A stretch of DNA of 64,000 nt from Dyella psychrodurans. Its GTDB lineage: Bacteria > Pseudomonadota > Gammaproteobacteria > Xanthomonadales > Rhodanobacteraceae. The notes beneath the pieces are model-generated. The model did no database searches. It saw only the letters and a program-made list of their open reading frames with translations, and was not told where the DNA came from. A program made the position numbers and the translations under genes. Where the stretch lies: positions 1-64,000 of the forward strand of contig NZ_QRBF01000009.1 in the NCBI RefSeq assembly GCF_003363265.1. The letters are read 5' to 3'. This document shows, piece after piece, positions 5,446 through 36,360 of the stretch; position 1 is the first letter of the stretch, and every line of letters starts with the position of its first letter.

Positions 5446-5588
5446 TGAATACGTGCACCGCTTCTGACGCGACCGCCGTGGCCGTGCCGTCAGAAGGGAA
5501 CCGGGGGATAAGCAACATCCTAGCCATCGTGGTCTTAGCGCGCCAGCCGAACCCAACATACGCCGGCGTTGTCCACCGCAACGTGACC

Positions 5589-5606
5589 TGTAACAAGCAT
5601 GTTACA
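5589..5606. promoter_or_regulatory. Palindromic activator site 1 (TGTAACA-N4-TGTTACA)
   Basis: A perfect 7-bp inverted repeat, TGTAACA-AGCA-TGTTACA, is centred about 174 bp before the predicted transcription start of the fap-like operon. This is the usual distance for enhancer sites bound by sigma-54 activators. The obvious candidate protein is the activator encoded at 11391-12731. The link is inferred from position and symmetry. Confidence 0.6.
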
Positions 5607-5661
5607 CCTGCTGAAAACCGCGCCACGGCAAGGCTGGAGAGAGCACCAGGCGCCCGCATCC

Positions 5662-5678
5662 TGTAACAGCATGTAACA
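5662..5678. promoter_or_regulatory. Related activator site 2 (TGTAACA-GCA-TGTAACA)
   Basis: A second copy of the same half-site pair lies 72 bp, or about seven helical turns, downstream of site 1. It is one base shorter in the spacer and has one mismatch in the right half. It is centred about 100 bp before the predicted start site. Two in-phase sites fit cooperative binding of an AAA+ activator. Confidence 0.55.
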
Positions 5679-5744
5679 ACGACCTCCACGCCATGTGGAC
5701 GAACTATTCACGCCACACCGCAGTTTTGCTGGGTTTTCAGGCGA

Positions 5745-5760
5745 TGGCACGGTGTTTGCC
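5745..5760 (+). promoter_or_regulatory. Sigma-54 (RpoN) -24/-12 promoter of the fap-like operon
   Basis: TGGCAC at 5745-5750 is followed after 5 nt by TTGC at 5756-5759. The invariant GG and GC are separated by exactly 10 nt, matching the sigma-54 consensus. The expected start of transcription is near 5771, leaving a leader of about 26 nt before the first gene at 5797. Two activator-type repeats lie upstream, and a sigma-54 activator gene closes the locus. Confidence 0.88.
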
Positions 5761-5796
5761 CTTCATTCATCAGGGACTTGAAGGGGAAACTCGCCC

Positions 5797-6348
5797 ATGG
5801 ACAGCTCGCACCCATCTGTGAACAGCCAGGCATGCCGTTGCGCATTCCTCGCGGGAGCATTCGTTCTCGCACTCATTCCTGTTGTCTCCTTTGCCGATGG
5901 CGCGCGCGTGGCCCAGAAGGCCAAACCGGGCGAGATAGTCCTGATCCGCAACGTGGCCGCACGTCCTGCGGATCGTCCGCCGACGGCGCCGGGCTTGGCG
6001 CTGATGGTGAGCGCATCGCCCAATCCGCAACTTGCCAATGGAATGAACGGGTCCACCGGATCGGGCGAGATTACCGATGCGGAAATCGCCGATCTGAATG
6101 CCGGTCCCACCGCGGGAGGCGCGGCGCCCGGACAGACCAACGTACAACGCTCGCTCAACGCAGCGCTCGGCACCAATTCAGGAGGAAACAGTGCCGGCGC
6201 CGTCAGCAATAACGGCGTAAGCAATCTGGTAAGCGGCGCCACCGGCGGAGCCGGCGCAGGTGCTGCGGTTGCAGACAGCACGCGCGGCATCGGTGATCAA
6301 GTCACCGGCGCGATGTCGCAGATTCCGATGCTGGGCGCGGGTCACTGA
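5797..6348 (+). CDS. FapA-position secreted protein of the fap-like operon
   Basis: First gene of the operon, encoding a 183-residue protein with a signal peptide (hydrophobic core about residues 16-32, ending near SFADG). The mature part is low complexity, rich in Gly, Ala, Asn and Pro. It lacks the amyloid repeat seen in the next two genes. In Pseudomonas the first gene, fapA, encodes a periplasmic protein thought to act like a chaperone for the fibre subunits. The assignment here rests on operon position, size and export signal, not on recognisable sequence identity. Its ATG lies about 26 nt after the predicted sigma-54 start site. Confidence 0.6.
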   Translation: MDSSHPSVNSQACRCAFLAGAFVLALIPVVSFADGARVAQKAKPGEIVLIRNVAARPADRPPTAPGLALMVSASPNPQLANGMNGSTGSGEITDAEIADLNAGPTAGGAAPGQTNVQRSLNAALGTNSGGNSAGAVSNNGVSNLVSGATGGAGAGAAVADSTRGIGDQVTGAMSQIPMLGAGH

Positions 6349-6356
6349 GGCGCGCC

Positions 6357-7016
6357 ATGATGCCGATTCTTCGCCATCTCGCGCTTTGCGCGGCAGTTTC
6401 CTTCGCCGCCATCGCACCAAATACATCCGTCTTCGCACAAACCGCGAATGCGGACAGCTATGCGTCGATGCTGAGTTATCTGGACAGCAACACCATCGGC
6501 GGCAATGCCCTGTCCGGCACGCAAGGCATCAGCTCCGTCAACACGGCATCGGGCGATGCGAATGCGCAGGCCAATATCCATGCTTTCGCGTTGGGGAGCC
6601 AGAACCAGACATTGATCCTGGCGCGACAGCGCACACGCTTCAACGCACCCAATGTTCCACTCGATGCCACCGCCATGATCGGCGGTCACGCCTACGACAA
6701 CGGGCAAGGCATCGCATCGATCAACCAGGTCAGCGGCAACGGCAACACCCAGCTCAACGGTGTGACCGGAACGCTGACACCACAAGGCATACGCGAGGCG
6801 ACGGACGGCACCCTGTCGGCCACTGTCTCTGCGTCGGCAGGGGGGCAATCATCGTCGAATCCACAACATGCACAGGCCGGCGGCACGCGGAGCGTGGGAG
6901 TCGATCCGTCCGCAATGGAAGGATTCAACGGTGTGATGCAACTCAACCAGGTCGCGGGATCCGGCAACGCCTCGGACAACTTGCTTTTGTTGTCGGCGCC
7001 TGCCTCCTCGCATTAA
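6357..7016 (+). CDS. fapB-like: FapB-like minor amyloid subunit
   Basis: A 219-residue exported protein (signal peptide about 1-27, cleavage near VFAQT). It contains three imperfect copies of an amyloid-type repeat with the pattern GxxxxNxxSGxxNxQxN, at about residues 56-73, 117-134 and 191-208. The third has lost part of the Asn/Gln ladder. This matches the three-repeat plan of Fap fibre subunits, and its place before the FapC-like gene suggests the minor or nucleating subunit. It starts 9 nt after the preceding stop. Confident as a Fap-type subunit, less so as FapB specifically. Confidence 0.75.
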   Translation: MMPILRHLALCAAVSFAAIAPNTSVFAQTANADSYASMLSYLDSNTIGGNALSGTQGISSVNTASGDANAQANIHAFALGSQNQTLILARQRTRFNAPNVPLDATAMIGGHAYDNGQGIASINQVSGNGNTQLNGVTGTLTPQGIREATDGTLSATVSASAGGQSSSNPQHAQAGGTRSVGVDPSAMEGFNGVMQLNQVAGSGNASDNLLLLSAPASSH

Positions 7017-7050
7017 TCATCCGCAACATCCAGTCAAGAGAGAAGACACC

Positions 7051-7941
7051 ATGAACGCAAATCTGAGAAGGACTTTGATTGCATTGGCTGTGGTAGGCGC
7101 ATTCGGCGCGTCGGTTGCTTATGCTCACGATGACGGCGGAAACAGCAGCAGCGTGAAGATCAGCAAGAAAGTTTCGCTGCGCTCCGACATCAACATCAAC
7201 GGCGACCCCAGGGTCAGCGGCCAGATCGACATCAACGCCGCGGCCGTGGCGCTGTCCAACACCACCCAGACCTCGGCATGGAACACCGTCGGCAATCATC
7301 ATGACGTAGCCAACACGTCCGACATCTCGGGCAATGTGGGCGAGAACGCATCGGGCAACGTGGGCGTCAACCAGGCATCCGGTGACTACAACGCTCAAGG
7401 CAACAGCGCTGCTATCGCGGCAGCCGGAAGCTCCACCAGCGATACCAGCTTTACGTTCGACTGCCAACACGGCGGCGGCTGCGGCAACAACGGCGGCGGT
7501 AGCGATCCGAATGCCGGCGGCATGGCAGATGCCGAAACGTTCACGAGCCAGTCTGTCCATCAGGACCGGACGTGGAACCACGGCACGACCAACTCGTCGA
7601 ACATCAGCGGCAATGCCTTCGACAATGCATCGGGCAACGTGGGTGTGAACCAGGCCTCGGGCGACAACAACGAGCAGAGCAACTCGCTCGCCGCCGCCAC
7701 CACGTCGAACAACGTGTATGCGCTGGCCACCTCGACGCTCGACCAGGAAATCACTGGTAACAGCGTGAGCAACGATCCAGGCACGCTCGGCTGGTGCAGC
7801 TATCCGCAGGCCACGACCAACACCAGCGTCCTGAAGGGCAATGTCGCTGCCAACTTCAGCGGCAACCTGGGTATCAACCAGGCCGCGGGTACCGGCAACG
7901 CGCAGAGCAACAGCCTGTCCATGGCGGTCGCCAACCCGTAA
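7051..7941 (+). CDS. fapC-like: FapC-like major amyloid fibre subunit
   Basis: A 296-residue exported protein (signal peptide about 1-25, ending AYAH). Three well-preserved repeats share the core SGNxGxNQAxGxxNxQxNS, at about residues 98-118, 193-213 and 269-289, each preceded by a short SGN motif. They are separated by linkers of unequal length, as in Pseudomonas FapC. The fibre core is expected to form from stacked Asn/Gln ladders. Three cysteines sit in the linkers (C138, C144, C249). This differs from the C-terminal CxxC I recall in Pseudomonas FapC. Strong hairpins follow the gene before fapD. Confidence 0.85.
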   Translation: MNANLRRTLIALAVVGAFGASVAYAHDDGGNSSSVKISKKVSLRSDININGDPRVSGQIDINAAAVALSNTTQTSAWNTVGNHHDVANTSDISGNVGENASGNVGVNQASGDYNAQGNSAAIAAAGSSTSDTSFTFDCQHGGGCGNNGGGSDPNAGGMADAETFTSQSVHQDRTWNHGTTNSSNISGNAFDNASGNVGVNQASGDNNEQSNSLAAATTSNNVYALATSTLDQEITGNSVSNDPGTLGWCSYPQATTNTSVLKGNVAANFSGNLGINQAAGTGNAQSNSLSMAVANP

Positions 7942-7995
7942 TAAGGGGAGGGAGTGGAGGAATGCGCCGTCGCAAGACGGCAATGAGGGCGGTAA

Positions 7996-8057
7996 CCCGG
8001 CGACATGCCGCCGGGCACCATGTGGAAGCCCCCTGCCCGTCCCCTGCGGGCAGGGGG
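7996..8057 (+). terminator. Two intercistronic hairpins between the FapC- and FapD-like genes
   Basis: Hairpin 1 has 7-bp arms at 7996-8002 and 8009-8015. Hairpin 2 has perfect 11-bp arms at 8029-8039 and 8047-8057 (CCCCCTGCCCG and complement). Neither is followed by a T run, so they look more like a partial terminator or an mRNA 3'-end stabiliser. Either would raise subunit output relative to the secretion genes. Hairpin 2 also resembles the GC-rich palindromes seen elsewhere in the window. Confidence 0.6.
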
Positions 8058-8088
8058 TCTTCCCTTCGATGGATGCGGGGATAGGGAC

Positions 8089-8799
8089 GTGCGATTAGCC
8101 GGTTTACACATCGCTGGCCTGCTCGGGCTCGCCACGGCGTGCTGGAGCATGCATGCACTCGCGGGCGACGTGAGTTTCGCCAACGTGCTGCCCAATGGCG
8201 CGCAATACGAAACGCGCGTCACCAGCATGCAGGAACTGCGTTTCGCCAACATCGTCCGCCAGCACACCGATTACAGCTGCGGCGCGGCCGCGCTCGCGAC
8301 GATCCTGCGCTACGCGTATCACCTCGATGTCGACGAATACACCGTCATCGACGGCATGCTCGGCCAGGCCGATCCGACGCTGGTCAAGGAACGCGGCTTT
8401 TCCATGCTCGACATCAAGCACTACGTGGAATCGTTAGGCATGCGCGGACGCGGCTATCGCGTCGACACGGCACGCCTGCACACATTGCGCGTACCCGTGA
8501 TCGTGCTGATGGACGTGCGCGGCTATCGCCACTTCGTCGTGCTCAAGCAGGTGCATGGCGATCATGTAGAACTCGCCGATCCGATCCTCGGCAACCGCAC
8601 CATGATGCTCGACGATTTCATGAAAGCCTGGCCCTCGCATGTCCTTTTTGTCGTGATTGGGAGCGATTTCGACCGCAGCACCGTACTTCTTCAGCCGGTC
8701 GACAAGCCCAGTGCACGGAGCCTCTTCGAGCGCCAAGGTGGCGCTATCACCGACGCCGAACTATTGGATTTCGGCTTCACCCATGCCGATCTGTTCTGA
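8089..8799 (+). CDS. fapD-like: FapD-like C39-family cysteine peptidase
   Basis: A 236-residue exported protein with a peptidase C39 domain, the fold that processes bacteriocin leaders and that FapD carries. Counting from the GTG at 8089, the oxyanion Gln and catalytic Cys are Q58 and C64 (RQHTDYSCGAAAL), followed by H148 (YRHFVVLK) and D164 (ELADPILGN). The GTG start is chosen because it yields a clean signal peptide (about 1-25, ending ALAGD) behind a purine-rich GGGGATAGGG. The first internal ATG would destroy the signal. It probably acts in the periplasm on subunits or the pore during Fap export. Confidence 0.82.
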   Translation: MRLAGLHIAGLLGLATACWSMHALAGDVSFANVLPNGAQYETRVTSMQELRFANIVRQHTDYSCGAAALATILRYAYHLDVDEYTVIDGMLGQADPTLVKERGFSMLDIKHYVESLGMRGRGYRVDTARLHTLRVPVIVLMDVRGYRHFVVLKQVHGDHVELADPILGNRTMMLDDFMKAWPSHVLFVVIGSDFDRSTVLLQPVDKPSARSLFERQGGAITDAELLDFGFTHADLF

Positions 8800-8809
8800 G
8801 GGCTTGGCC

Positions 8810-9955
8810 ATGTATAAGCGTTCATTGATTTTCACCGCACTCGCGCTGGCAATGGCGTGCAGATGCGCCCCCCTGCTCGCCAACGAAATGCCGACAAGCG
8901 AAACCACGGATCAACACCTCGCACCCGGCATCAACGAAGTGGGCGACGACGAACTGGCCACCATGCGCGGCCGCTATACCGCCGGCGACAACACGGTTGT
9001 CTGGTTCGGCGTGGAGATGGTTTCCACCTGGCAAACCAACACGGGGCAGACGCTGCAGAGCGCGATGACCGTGAGCATGAACTTCAGCAAGAACCCCAAT
9101 CGTCCGCAGGTAACGTTCGTTCCGACCGTCACGATCACCACCTCCGACGCACCTTTGCCGACCTCCGTAACGCCTTCCACGATCAATCGCAGCGTGCAGA
9201 GTGGCGGCGTCGCAAACGTGGGCGGCCTGACACAAAGCGTGCAGCTCGCCGGCGACAACAATGCCGCAACCAACGTTGCCAGCTTGAATATTCAGAACGG
9301 CGGTAGCGCACCGTCGTCAAGCAATAGCTCCACTAGCAGCAGCACGTCGACGACAACGCCGAACACTTCGCCGCCTTCATCCAGCGCCAGTGTCGCAGTG
9401 AACAGCCCGACGGCCAATACCAGCTCATCTACCACAACCGTGGCTTCGAACAATTCGAGCAATGCCGGCAGCACCAACAACGTTGCCTCGAACAACTCGA
9501 GCAATGCCAGCAATACCAACAACGTCGCCTCGAGCAATTCGAACAATACCAGCAATACCAACAGCATCGCCTCGAACAATTCGAACAGCGCGAGCAGCAC
9601 CAACAACGCTGCTTCTGCGGGCAACAGTACAACCACCACGCCGTCGACAATCACCACCAACACAGGCGTAAGCACGCCAACCGGCCGAACGGCCACGGCC
9701 GGCAATGCGACGGCATCGTCGACCTACTCGAACAACAGTGCCGAAGTCTCCCTGTCGGTAACCGGACAGGGCAACGTGTCGCAGTGGATTCATGCTGGCA
9801 ACCTGGGCCAGACGATCGCATTGACCACCGACAACCAGGTCGTAACAAACCAGATGATCGTGAGTCTCGTGACGCAGTCGATCGCTTCGACCACGTCGCA
9901 AGTCGCGCACAGCCTGGCGCAGTCCATGAACTTGTCCCACACCATCGGCCACTGA
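8810..9955 (+). CDS. FapE-position secreted protein with Asn/Ser/Thr-rich tandem repeats
   Basis: A 381-residue exported protein (signal peptide about 1-25). The N-terminal region has a GDDELATMRGRYT motif and a predicted beta-rich stretch. Residues 165-300 are almost entirely Ser, Thr, Asn and Ala and include four 14-residue tandem repeats (211-266). The C-terminal 75 residues return to ordinary sequence with alternating hydrophobics. In Pseudomonas the gene at this position, fapE, encodes a small fibre-associated protein. This one is longer because of the repeat insert. The role is inferred from operon order, and homology to FapE is possible but not proven by eye. Confidence 0.62.
   Translation: MYKRSLIFTALALAMACRCAPLLANEMPTSETTDQHLAPGINEVGDDELATMRGRYTAGDNTVVWFGVEMVSTWQTNTGQTLQSAMTVSMNFSKNPNRPQVTFVPTVTITTSDAPLPTSVTPSTINRSVQSGGVANVGGLTQSVQLAGDNNAATNVASLNIQNGGSAPSSSNSSTSSSTSTTTPNTSPPSSSASVAVNSPTANTSSSTTTVASNNSSNAGSTNNVASNNSSNASNTNNVASSNSNNTSNTNSIASNNSNSASSTNNAASAGNSTTTTPSTITTNTGVSTPTGRTATAGNATASSTYSNNSAEVSLSVTGQGNVSQWIHAGNLGQTIALTTDNQVVTNQMIVSLVTQSIASTTSQVAHSLAQSMNLSHTIGH
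9440..9607 (+). repeat. Four 42-bp tandem repeats within the FapE-position gene
   Basis: Four in-frame units of 42 bp (9440-9481, 9482-9523, 9524-9565, 9566-9607) encode variants of VASNNSSNASNTNN. The units differ at several bases, so the array is not freshly expanded, but its regular length makes copy-number change between strains likely. Confidence 0.9.
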
Positions 9956-10004
9956 GCGCGCGCCCTAGCCCAGCGCACGCTCACTACATGCAGGGGATAC
10001 CACT

Positions 10005-11348
10005 ATGCGCAAGACACTTTTGGCCACTGCGGTGGCATGCAGTTGGATTTCCGGTTTCGCGAGTTTCAGCACGTTCGGCCAGGATGCCCAGTCCACCGCA
10101 GCACCGGCCACGAGCGCGCAGAATCAGGCGGACGTGCAGGAGCTCGTCCGCCAGCTGCAGATGCTCAAGGTGAGTTATGCGCAGGAGGTACGCAAGCTGC
10201 GCGTGCTCGATGCCCAGGTACAAGCGCTGCAGTCGCGCCTGACCGGAAAGAACGCCACGGCGCCGCTTCCAGCGGAAGCCGTTCCACCTTCGGAAACGGC
10301 AAACGCCCCGACCGTGTCGGCGCCGGGTGGCGTGGAAAGCTCGCAGGCAGCGTCGACAACTCAGACAGCACAGACCGCCAGTTCAACCCAGAGCCGCAGT
10401 GTCCAGGATGTCCTGGAGCAGGAACAGAACGCGTATTTCAGTCGCAAATTCACCTTTGAAAACGACCTCACCTACAACCATTACGATCGCGCGGAACTGA
10501 CGCTCAACGGCTTCCTGGCGTTGAATTCGATCTTCCTCGGCAACATCGCCATCGATCGCGTGACGTCCGATTCGCTCACCTACGACATGATCGGACGTTA
10601 TGCGATCACGCCGCGCCTGAGTTTCAACCTGGATGTTCCGTACGTCGGACGCGCCACGGATTACCAGCAAGGTGGCGCCGGCGGATCGGCAGCCGCCATC
10701 GATGAAAAGCAATCCACCGGCAAGGCCATCGGCGACGTCAGTTTCTCCGTCAACTACAAGCTGTTGACGGAGACGCAAAGCCGGCCCGATACCGTGCTGA
10801 CCTTTGGCATGACCGCTCCCAGCGGCCGCGCGCCGTATGGCATCAAGTGGTACAACGTCGCCAGTTCGCAATTTGAAGAGTTTGCGGTGCCGTCCAGGCA
10901 ACCCACCGGCAACGGCGTGTGGCAAGCATCACTCGGATCGTCGTTCGTGAAGACCATCGATCCTGCCATCGTGTTCGGCAACGTGGGGTACATCCACTCC
11001 TTCATCCGCGGCTTCAACGACATCAACACCGATCCGCAGGTGGTCACGCCAGGCAGCGTCAAGCTGGCGGATGTCTTCTACTTCGGTGCGGGTTTGGCAT
11101 TTGCGTTCAATGATCGCGCCAGTCTGAGCCTGTCGTTCAGCGACCGCATCAACGGCAAGGATTCCTTGCGCGAAACCGGCGGCTCGTGGACCAAGATCAT
11201 CGGCAGCCAGGCGAACGCGGCGACGTTGAACCTCGGTTTCACCTATGCGGTGAACGCGCACACGACGATCGTGACCTTGCTTGGCATGGGCATGACACCC
11301 GATGCGCCGGACTTCACGCTGACGTTCAAGGTTCCCTACATGTTCTGA
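10005..11348 (+). CDS. fapF-like: FapF-like outer-membrane secretion pore
   Basis: A 447-residue outer-membrane protein. It has a signal peptide (about 1-25), a periplasmic coiled-coil segment at about 41-80 (ELVRQLQMLKVSYAQEVRKL), a Pro/Ala/Thr-rich linker to about 135, and a beta-barrel of alternating strands from about 145 that ends in the aromatic FKVPYMF. This is the architecture of FapF, a trimeric pore that exports Fap subunits. A family with the same layout is annotated as transporters of phenol degradation type, but the operon context favours FapF. It is the last gene of the operon, and its stop is 42 bp from the convergent activator gene. Confidence 0.82.
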   Translation: MRKTLLATAVACSWISGFASFSTFGQDAQSTAAPATSAQNQADVQELVRQLQMLKVSYAQEVRKLRVLDAQVQALQSRLTGKNATAPLPAEAVPPSETANAPTVSAPGGVESSQAASTTQTAQTASSTQSRSVQDVLEQEQNAYFSRKFTFENDLTYNHYDRAELTLNGFLALNSIFLGNIAIDRVTSDSLTYDMIGRYAITPRLSFNLDVPYVGRATDYQQGGAGGSAAAIDEKQSTGKAIGDVSFSVNYKLLTETQSRPDTVLTFGMTAPSGRAPYGIKWYNVASSQFEEFAVPSRQPTGNGVWQASLGSSFVKTIDPAIVFGNVGYIHSFIRGFNDINTDPQVVTPGSVKLADVFYFGAGLAFAFNDRASLSLSFSDRINGKDSLRETGGSWTKIIGSQANAATLNLGFTYAVNAHTTIVTLLGMGMTPDAPDFTLTFKVPYMF

Positions 11349-11390
11349 CGTGCGATGGACAGGCGCAGGCCGATGGCCTGCGCCTCGGCG

Positions 11391-12731
11391 TCAATGCATG
11401 TCTTCCAGCACCAGCTGATGCTTTTTGCAAAGCCGATAGATCGTTACGCGCGACACCTTCAGGCGACGCGCGCATTCGCTGATGTTGAAGCGCGTCTCGC
11501 GCAGGCAGGCCACCACGGCATCGCGTTCGGCCGATGTTCGAGTGAGGCCGAGACTGGAATGTCCCGCGCGCATGGTTATCGCATCCTGCAGATCCAGGTC
11601 GGCAACGCTGATCTGTGCGCCCTCCGCGACCACCGCGGCACGCTGCACGCGGTTGAGCAGTTCGCGCACGTTGCCTGGCCACGCAAAGTCGCGAAGTGCC
11701 TTGCGCGACAGTGCGCTGAAGGTGCGTGCGTTGCAGTCGTGTTGCTTGCGGAATACGTCCAGGAACAGTTGTGCCAGCTGCAGCACATCGTCCTCGCGCT
11801 CCCGCAGGGCCGGCATGCGCAGCCGCAGCACGTTGAGCCGGTAGTACAGGTCTTCGCGGAAACGACCCTGGGCGACCGCTTTTTCCAGGTCCACATGGGT
11901 GGCTGCCAAAACACGCACATCGAGCTTGATCGATTGCGTGGAACCTACGCGCTCCAGCGTGCCTTCCTGCAGCAACCGCAACAGGCTGATCTGCGCGTCC
12001 GGCGGCAGGTCGCCGACTTCATCGAGAAAAACCGTGCCGCCCGCGGCCGCTTCGAAATGGCCGATACGACGCGCATTGGCGCCGGTGAACGAACCGCGTT
12101 CGTGACCGAACAATTCCGATTGCACGAGGTTGGCCGGCAGCGCTCCGCAATTGATCGCCGCGAACGGATGATCCCGCCGCGGCGACAATTTGTGTAGCGC
12201 GCGCGCTGCGATTTCCTTGCCCGTGCCGGTTTCGCCGGTAATCAGCACCGGCAAATCCACCGGTGCGTATTTGCGCAGGCTGGCAACCACCGCCATCATC
12301 GCCGCGCTGGAACCGGTGATACCTGGGACATCGGCATAAGGCACCGGCGCAGGTGCATCGCCCGCCAGTGTGCCGAGCGTCTCAATCAAACGCTGCATGT
12401 CGATGGGCGCGGTGAAGAAATCGATGCTCGCGCGAAGAACGCGTTCTACTTCGGGCGCCTGCACAACCGTCTCGGTCGACAGCAAGGCCAACCATGGAAG
12501 TCGCGGATGGTCGGCCATCAGCCGCGCCATCTCGCGCAATGCATCGGCATCTGCGTTGCGCAGATCCGCCATCGCTACCACGGTGTCGCCACGTCGGATG
12601 CCTACGCCACCTCCCTGCGCGTTCGCATCCGCGACTCGTGTATGCCAACCTGCCTGCGCCAAGCGCGTTCTTTCAGCGCTCGTGGGCTGACCAAACCAAA
12701 CCACACACCGGATCGACGTGTCGCTCGTCAT
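11391..12731 (-). CDS. Sigma-54-dependent activator with VpsR-like N-terminal domain
   Basis: A 446-residue bacterial enhancer-binding protein. Residues 1-125 form a degenerate receiver-like domain resembling the VpsR N-terminal domain. Residues 137-370 are the AAA+ ATPase, with Walker A GETGTGKE at 166-173, the sigma-54 contact loop GSFTGA at 213-218 (the usual form is GAFTGA) and Walker [12 protein letters not shown] at 231-241. Residues 416-437 are a Fis-type helix-turn-helix ([19 protein letters not shown]). It faces the fap-like operon, whose promoter is of the sigma-54 type, so it is the natural candidate activator. Whether it responds to phosphorylation or cyclic-di-GMP, as VpsR does, cannot be read from the sequence. 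Confidence 0.9.
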
Positions 12732-12993
12732 CGCAACGCCTCCCTCCAGGATTGCTGATCACAGCCCCTGTCACGTCCAAGTCAACAGGTTTCCTGCCCC
12801 ACCCCAAATAACAAGCACGCGCCACAAAAAAGCGATGCAGTTCACGGAATATACACCCAATTCTATACCGGTGATCACTTTTTGAGCAGATACCTCGCCC
12901 GTCCACCGTCCCGGTGGAGAGCGATGCGCGATGGGATCTTACGCGCCGAATGACGGCGCCCTGATGACAGCTCCCGGGAAATTATTGAACTAC
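12732..12993. other. Intergenic region between the activator and SDR genes
   Basis: This holds the promoter of the minus-strand activator and the 3' end of the SDR gene. An 8-bp inverted repeat (12985-12992 and 12995-13002, TTGAACTA and complement) spans the SDR stop codon and may end that transcript. No TGTAACA half-site was found here, so there is no sign of autoregulation through the fap-type sites. Confidence 0.5.
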
Positions 12994-34273: not shown

Positions 34274-36319
<2,046 letters not shown>

Positions 36320-36330
<11 letters not shown>

Positions 36331-36360
36331 TTAAGTGCTTATTGGAACACGAAGCGGGGG
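36320..36360 (-). promoter_or_regulatory. Alternative hairpin overlapping the 5' side of the riboswitch
   Basis: CCCCCGCTTC at 36320-36329 and GAAGCGGGGG at 36351-36360 are perfect 10-bp inverted complements. In the thiC transcript the upstream arm could pair with the start of the aptamer and compete with P1. Alternatively it ends transcripts from the upstream TetR gene, though no T run follows. Confidence 0.5.

Follow-up and report, generated by a model that had tools for sequence, protein, structure and literature searches.

A three-hairpin RNA inside the fap amyloid operon of Rhodanobacteraceae, most likely a sigma-54-controlled small RNA that outlives the amyloid genes

The fapABCDEF amyloid operon of Pseudomonas has counterparts in the Beta-, Gamma- and Deltaproteobacteria, and the accessible part of the published survey names the order Xanthomonadales and the genus Stenotrophomonas, with Rhodanobacter appearing once in the text (PMC3792158). 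In Pseudomonas fluorescens PF07, fap requires RpoN and BrfA, whose gene is the adjacent, reversed neighbour downstream of fapF (PMC9207406), and BrfA senses cyclic diguanosine monophosphate (c-di-GMP; PMC13101488). Here we describe a fap operon in the first 64,000 nucleotides (nt) of contig NZ_QRBF01000009.1 of Dyella psychrodurans, read on the forward strand (the window), together with a structured RNA that lies between its fapC and fapD. Comparison with related genomes suggests that this RNA is most likely a small RNA controlled by BrfA and sigma-54, embedded in the amyloid operon and outliving the amyloid genes. To the overall explanation, in which BrfA and sigma-54 switch on a fap operon that contains a small RNA, we would assign a probability of roughly 0.7.

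Profile matches make it next to certain that region 5797-11348 is a Fap operon. Its six open reading frames (ORFs) lie on one strand in the order A-B-C-D-E-F, the best NCBIfam match of each is the expected Fap component and, by that measure, six such matches in order are far beyond chance. Both the gene order and the completeness of the Fap system in this Xanthomonadales-type genome had been proposed in an earlier note on this DNA, and the six profiles bear them out. All six components, their order, the FapC repeats, the C39 peptidase FapD and the FapF pore are shared with Pseudomonas fapABCDEF; what differs is that the window's proteins fall under the equivalog cut-offs, that FapE carries a Ser/Asn-rich insert and that the fapC-fapD gap holds an elaborate RNA. 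True Fap members could miss these curated cut-offs, under which all six scores lie, because Fap proteins outside the Pseudomonadales have a mean identity to those of PAO1 of only 17-39% (PMC3792158, accessible part). All 17 of the relatives' fap loci that we fetched contain the six genes, fapA included, and a homologue of the window's sigma-54 activator. The Fap part of the locus is a further member of a known system, as fap in this bacterial order has already been published, going by the same portion of that survey.

The operon can be placed under BrfA/sigma-54 control with good confidence. As in PF07, a -24/-12 promoter precedes fapA and a reversed activator gene lies right after fapF (PMC9207406 and PMC13101488, where accessible); the likeness of the window's activator, which has GETGTGK and GSFTGA motifs, to PF07 BrfA rests on this gene layout and on its domains. 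The difference is that, in relatives among the Rhodanobacteraceae, the same control appears to stay over a small RNA once fap is gone. In 16 of the 18 fap loci, the window included, a sigma-54 site before fapA reaches a score of at least 21 out of 23 (shuffles, 0.6%; the two loci without one are L055 and L058), on a scale whose weights are our own, a caveat that tells against our account. Upstream of the promoter, TGTAACA-type half-sites lie at -143 to -185, counted from the -24 element, in 13 of 17 fap loci and one lies at -70 to -93 in 14 of 17 (window included in both counts, L058 left out of the 18), and the 64 kb window has just two paired TGTAACA sites, both upstream of fapA. A consensus promoter and terminator scan of 5500-12800 found no sigma-70 site. 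Among 17 relatives, the activator gene is convergent after fapF in 16 and is upstream of fapA and divergent from it in L057. In a separate set of 14 distant fap loci (L143-L156), an activator homologue lies near fap in 12 and upstream of it in 9.

Between fapC and fapD there is very probably a structured RNA, which, like the sigma-54 promoter and the brfA-like regulator, is absent from the earlier note. The stretch at 7964-8069 folds much better than shuffles (z-score -5.5). In alignment A7, which comprises 69 of 71 RNA sequences (L055 and L212 were left out), a structure of stem-loops SL1, SL2 and an extended SL3 has 93.3% of cells paired, and 15 of its 31 pairs show double compensatory changes. 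Double-change cells number 66 versus 21.5 after shuffling, with 0 of 500 shuffles as high, and sliding the pairing partners drops the paired cells to at most 59.2%. Two motifs do not vary in any of the 69 sequences: GGGCGG, at the foot of SL2, and CCCCUG, at the SL3 tip.

This RNA is apparently undescribed so far. An Rfam scan returned no family at its gathering score for the element in the window or in seven related loci. The 6C RNA (RF01066) likewise has two GC hairpins and a C-rich loop and aligns weakly, but its score of 22.6 bits, where the gathering score is 47, leaves the element outside that family. Nor is it a repeat element, as its own genome holds one full copy and the remaining matches are 16-24 nt long. 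Among the open-access papers listed by literature searches, judged by titles and the starts of abstracts, we recognised no account of an RNA in a fap operon. By description it can be likened to sX13 of Xanthomonas, also a compact three-hairpin RNA with a C-rich loop, although sX13 lies at another locus, has C-rich motifs in three loops as opposed to the single invariant motif in SL3 here and, in the accessible portion of its text, shows no tie to fap or BrfA (PMC3771888).

Among 233 genomes of the family, RNA model R1 (E up to 0.01) matches 70 and FapF (E up to 1e-70) is found in 42; the two overlap in 26 genomes, which leaves 44 with the RNA but no FapF and 16 in which FapF comes with no R1 match. 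With 44 of 70 RNA-plus genomes lacking FapF, a fap-specific element was rejected. An activator homologue (E up to 1e-115) is present in 121 of the 233, including all 70 RNA-plus genomes by comparison of the listings by eye, and the RNA is found in 0 of the 112 without one; these counts, like the contrast in T-runs given below, take no account of relatedness, which lessens their weight in favour of our account. Across the order, model R2 matches 37 of 299 genomes. The 31 strong matches (E below 1e-10) all fall in the same family, and the six weak ones comprise three within the fapC-fapD gap of a second family, two in Luteibacter-type genomes between argD and the activator and one that is unrelated. 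A class-wide search matched 2 of 274, one being the genome of the window itself.

The surroundings of the RNA differ between loci with and without fap. From 75 sources, 72 RNA matches gave 27 fap-plus and 44 fap-minus loci, after dropping L213, a weak extra match in G479; L051, L052, L193 and L199 were counted as fap-plus on their fap genes, and L055 is in that set though outside the family. Wherever fap is present (27 of 27 loci), the RNA begins 8-28 nt behind the final sense codon of fapC. A script placed it between fapC and fapD in 22 of them; for the remaining 5, the alignment to the FapD profile begins inside the RNA, with the frame open throughout. Past the RNA, a Cys motif of the FapD type appears within 420 nt in 26 of 27 fap-plus loci versus 1 of 44 fap-minus loci. 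Where fap is missing, the convergent neighbour of the RNA is the activator gene (44/44) and an argD homologue lies on its other side (44/44), its open frame passing the RNA start in 5. Within 300 nt upstream of the RNA, a sigma-54 site scoring at least 21 is present in 38 of 44 fap-minus loci versus 0 of 27 fap-plus loci (0.35% of shuffles), rising to 42 of 44 fap-minus loci within 450 nt, and a T-run of 4 or more after SL3 is seen in 13 of 44 versus 0 of 27. It is probable from this arrangement that the RNA is an independent transcription unit in fap-minus relatives.

These observations can be joined into one proposed mechanism. At high c-di-GMP, BrfA would bind the TGTAACA sites and fire the sigma-54 promoter. 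FapA, FapB and FapC would then be made in excess, FapD would mature and gate, FapE accompany and FapF export, and FapC would assemble into amyloid. In cis, the strong hairpins of the RNA would protect or cap the fapABC message, giving less fapDEF. In trans, the processed RNA would regulate as a small RNA, its invariant CCCCUG loop probably pairing with G-rich ribosome-binding sites. We infer processing and action in trans from the retention of the RNA without fap, and a role in trans would account for the sigma-54 site, the RNA and brfA being kept after the amyloid genes are lost. We lean towards the RNA being a trans-acting regulator; that its C-rich CCCCUG loop is the pairing site is a more tentative proposal, to which we give somewhat less than an even chance. 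Pairing of a C-rich loop with G-rich ribosome-binding sites has been shown for sX13 (PMC3771888, accessible part), and the C-rich loop here suggests, by analogy, the same mode. The loop complement AGGGGA occurs in 11 of 26 fapA leaders versus 2 of 94 long window ORFs within 25 nt of the first ATG, a comparison of stretches of 85 and 25 nt with an ORF set that includes spurious ones; this match is a lead only.

In its fullest form, which we favour by a little over even odds, the proposal is that the fap operon in Rhodanobacteraceae doubles as a gene for a small RNA: a three-hairpin RNA would be cut from the fapC-fapD junction under BrfA/sigma-54 (c-di-GMP) control, selection would preserve the RNA and not the amyloid across several losses of the operon, and the RNA would link amyloid to other biofilm and motility genes and to translation of fapA. 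If transcribed in the way proposed, the RNA would represent a new family and would tie a matrix amyloid to post-transcriptional control. It would also explain why a brfA-like regulator persists in some genomes after fap loss, and the many species that lost the amyloid and kept the RNA would offer a natural experiment for an amyloid-independent role.

Several observations weigh against this proposal. SL1 is weak, its outer part having 76.5% paired cells (A7). R1 finds no match in 16 of the 42 family genomes with FapF, so Fap can do without this form of the RNA. The activator can likewise persist without the RNA, as few R1-minus loci show the accompanying signals: of the 51 activator-plus, R1-minus loci, 20 were examined, and a sigma-54 site of at least 21 is present in 7 and a short promoter-to-terminator unit in 5, all Luteibacter-type. 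As the other 15 show no such unit, the notion that an activator without fap always has an RNA beside it was rejected. No T-run of 4 follows SL3 in 31 of 44 fap-minus loci, and a pattern scan of 5500-12800 listed 10 terminators, none of them in the fapC-fapD gap. Finally, AGGGGA in fapA leaders is nearly confined to the window's genus.

In the five Luteibacter-type loci the sigma-54 site begins 145-164 nt before the activator stop; in four of them a hairpin with a T-rich tail was found by script 92-94 nt after the start of that site, and in the fifth, L236, the automatic pick was another hairpin and the terminator was seen by eye. The unit suggests a diverged or analogous RNA. Luteibacter-type loci without fap that show such a brfA-adjacent sigma-54 promoter-to-terminator unit are L233-L237, L218 and L219, in which the match to the RNA model is weak or missing.

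The most serious alternative, although an unlikely one, is that the RNA acts purely in cis, as an intra-operon terminator or a stabiliser of messenger RNA that sets the subunits above the export machinery, with no action in trans. Hairpins that set subunit over machinery expression are known for other operons. Stable hairpins stand directly after fapC in the 18 loci first folded; FapD lies within about 210 nt of the fapC stop in 10 of 14 distant loci, in all 10 of which a strong hairpin was read soon after the stop; and L145 and L154 have textbook terminators after fapC. However, a role confined to cis does not explain why fap-minus loci have kept promoter, RNA and activator, nor why GGGCGG and CCCCUG are invariant in 69 of 69 sequences. 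In RNA sequencing of PF07, as far as the account is accessible, fapA to fapE rise together and fapF does not, with no split at fapC/fapD; the lack of a reported step there therefore speaks against a general cis role, including the one that we propose. A role in cis alongside the one in trans is plausible.

It is improbable that the fap-minus copies are decaying relics whose promoter and RNA have merely not yet been deleted. Fragments of fap genes do lie beside the RNA in several fap-minus genomes, and clear fap relics adjoin it in L157, L158, L159, L161 and L162 of the window's genus. In that genus, however, 16 of 16 genomes have the RNA and 10 have FapF, and the 6 without FapF all keep the RNA at differing promoter-to-RNA distances (28, 155, 191 and 344 nt, and 338 nt from a site scoring 20; no promoter was found in L162). 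These five distinct distances indicate several separate deletions that spared the RNA. The 20 RNA-plus g14 genomes also keep it with no FapF match, and across 20 like-spaced loci (19 from g14, and L157) the RNA sequences resemble one another far more than their flanks do, with a mean pairwise identity of 92.5% compared with 73.8% for the leader, 65.5% downstream and 59.2% when shuffled. On a tree of the activator made by a quick method from 70 of 71 rows (L178, with a fragmentary activator, was left out), the presence of fap requires at least 13 changes, 6 of them forced by well-supported branches.

Very doubtful, too, is a ligand- or protein-controlled translational switch for fapD, in which the 3' strand of a three-way junction could cover the fapD ribosome-binding site. 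RNAalifold closed such a junction when folding 14 sequences, and the window's own minimum-energy fold keeps a short closing helix alongside the SL3 extension. Over the 69 sequences the closing helix is 89.6% paired, and the variant in which it replaces the SL3 extension has 93.2% of cells paired, about equal overall, with a covariation of 0.144 versus 0.124 for the extended-SL3 structure. We set this switch aside when the consensus from 71 sequences shifted to the extended SL3 and the closing helix was without any double-change pair; a switch for fapD also leaves retention of the RNA without fapD unexplained. Least credible is the reading of the RNA as a bidirectional terminator that serves the convergent activator gene, as it is 19-454 nt from the end of the activator reading frame in fap-minus loci but in fap-plus loci sits between fapC and fapD, some 2.9-3.3 kb away from that gene.

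Table 1. Features of the fap locus in the window, with coordinates and supporting matches.
Feature	Coordinates	Strand	Details
Candidate upstream activator site 1, palindrome TGTAACA-N4-TGTTACA	5589..5606	+	direct reading
Candidate upstream activator site 2, TGTAACA-N3-TGTAACA	5662..5678	+	direct reading
Sigma-54 type -24/-12 promoter TGGCACGGTGTTTGCC upstream of fapA	5745..5760	+	motif score
fapA, exported chaperone-like protein	5797..6348	+	183 aa; NCBIfam NF058617 2.3e-5, below cut-off
fapB, minor/nucleator amyloid subunit	6357..7016	+	219 aa; NF058557 7.8e-20; three repeats
fapC, major amyloid subunit	7051..7941	+	296 aa; NF058558 7e-27; PDB 9nqd/9u4u FapC 6e-13
Conserved three-hairpin structured RNA between fapC and fapD	7964..8069	+	fold z-score -5.5; covariation on 69 sequences
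RNA stem-loop SL1	7966..7981	+	covariation alignment
RNA stem-loop SL2 (CCCGGC/GCCGGG, outer GGU/ACC), overlapping invariant GGGCGG	7991..8019	+	covariation alignment
RNA stem-loop SL3, invariant CCCCUG at tip; T-run follows in some fap-minus relatives	8024..8063	+	covariation alignment
fapD, C39-family maturation peptidase	8089..8799	+	236 aa, GTG start; NF058616 1.5e-78; Pfam C39 9.5e-23
fapE, Ser/Asn-rich repeat insert at about 9310-9640	8810..9955	+	381 aa; NF058559 2.7e-18
fapF, outer-membrane export pore	10005..11348	+	447 aa; NF058560 4.4e-117; PDB 5o65 2.1e-86
brfA-like sigma-54 activator (VpsR domain, AAA+, Fis-type HTH), convergent with fapF	11391..12731	-	Pfam Sigma54_activat 4e-69, VpsR 3.4e-12

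The individual Fap proteins (Table 1) agree closely with what the earlier note had read from the letters. Its two exported proteins with three Asn/Gln repeats each are FapB, with the motif at 57, 118 and 192, and FapC, whose three repeats were missed by a regular expression and read by eye, the alignment with the FapC structures spanning the last two; the 219-aa and 296-aa products match the FapB and FapC profiles. Its C39-type protease is FapD, the only one of the six that Pfam labels, in which Cys63, His148 and an ADP motif at 163 can be read; the GTG start at 8089 is our choice. The 447-aa outer-membrane barrel protein is FapF, not an unrelated transporter: residues 128-447 align with solved FapF (5o65, 5o67 and 5o68, the best E-value being that in Table 1) and residues 31-447 with the NCBIfam family model, a match that predicts a FapF-type trimeric barrel with an N-terminal coil. 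The note had expected that FapA and FapE might escape labelling by sequence search; both were labelled, although under the curated cut-offs. The Ser/Asn/Thr-rich insert of FapE (9310-9640) has a shorter version in L044, of the same genus, and is largely missing from the three FapE proteins of other genera that were aligned. In a plasmid search, FapF-like proteins appeared on 18 plasmid records, each at under 60% identity.

The same genome carries a second, Fap-like operon of five genes (L022 on contig C2, 2781-6952, minus strand), which encodes a Gly/Ser-rich exported protein, a small exported protein with a QNTGNN motif, a FapD-like C39 peptidase, a FapE-like protein and a FapF-like pore. The FapD-like and FapF-like proteins match at 7.6e-43 and 1.2e-42, the two exported proteins are without a named family, and the FapE-like assignment comes from a profile alignment of 62 columns, signal peptide included (90% probability, E 1.4e-6). 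Searches with the window's FapA, FapB, FapC and FapE found no match in this operon. Its five genes occur together in 19 of 20 loci fetched, the contig of the remaining one beginning partway through the operon. Of 462 candidates, 80 named loci were kept, and 77 of these have all five genes, some with the pore gene reversed; the loci reach Lysobacter, Pseudoxanthomonas, Burkholderia, Ralstonia and Pandoraea. C39 peptidases were previously unreported in operons with COG4313-like pores, going by the accessible part of PMC6173800, and among the open-access papers listed, again judged by titles and the starts of abstracts, we recognised no account of the second operon, which might be an undescribed sister secretion system. 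In Mizugakiibacter (L023 / L119), a BrfA-like gene is directly convergent with the FapF-like gene of this second system, a layout that hints that a BrfA-like regulator can serve the second operon too.

Elsewhere in the window, an ordinary thiamine pyrophosphate (TPP) riboswitch lies at 36240-36334 on the minus strand (68 bits).

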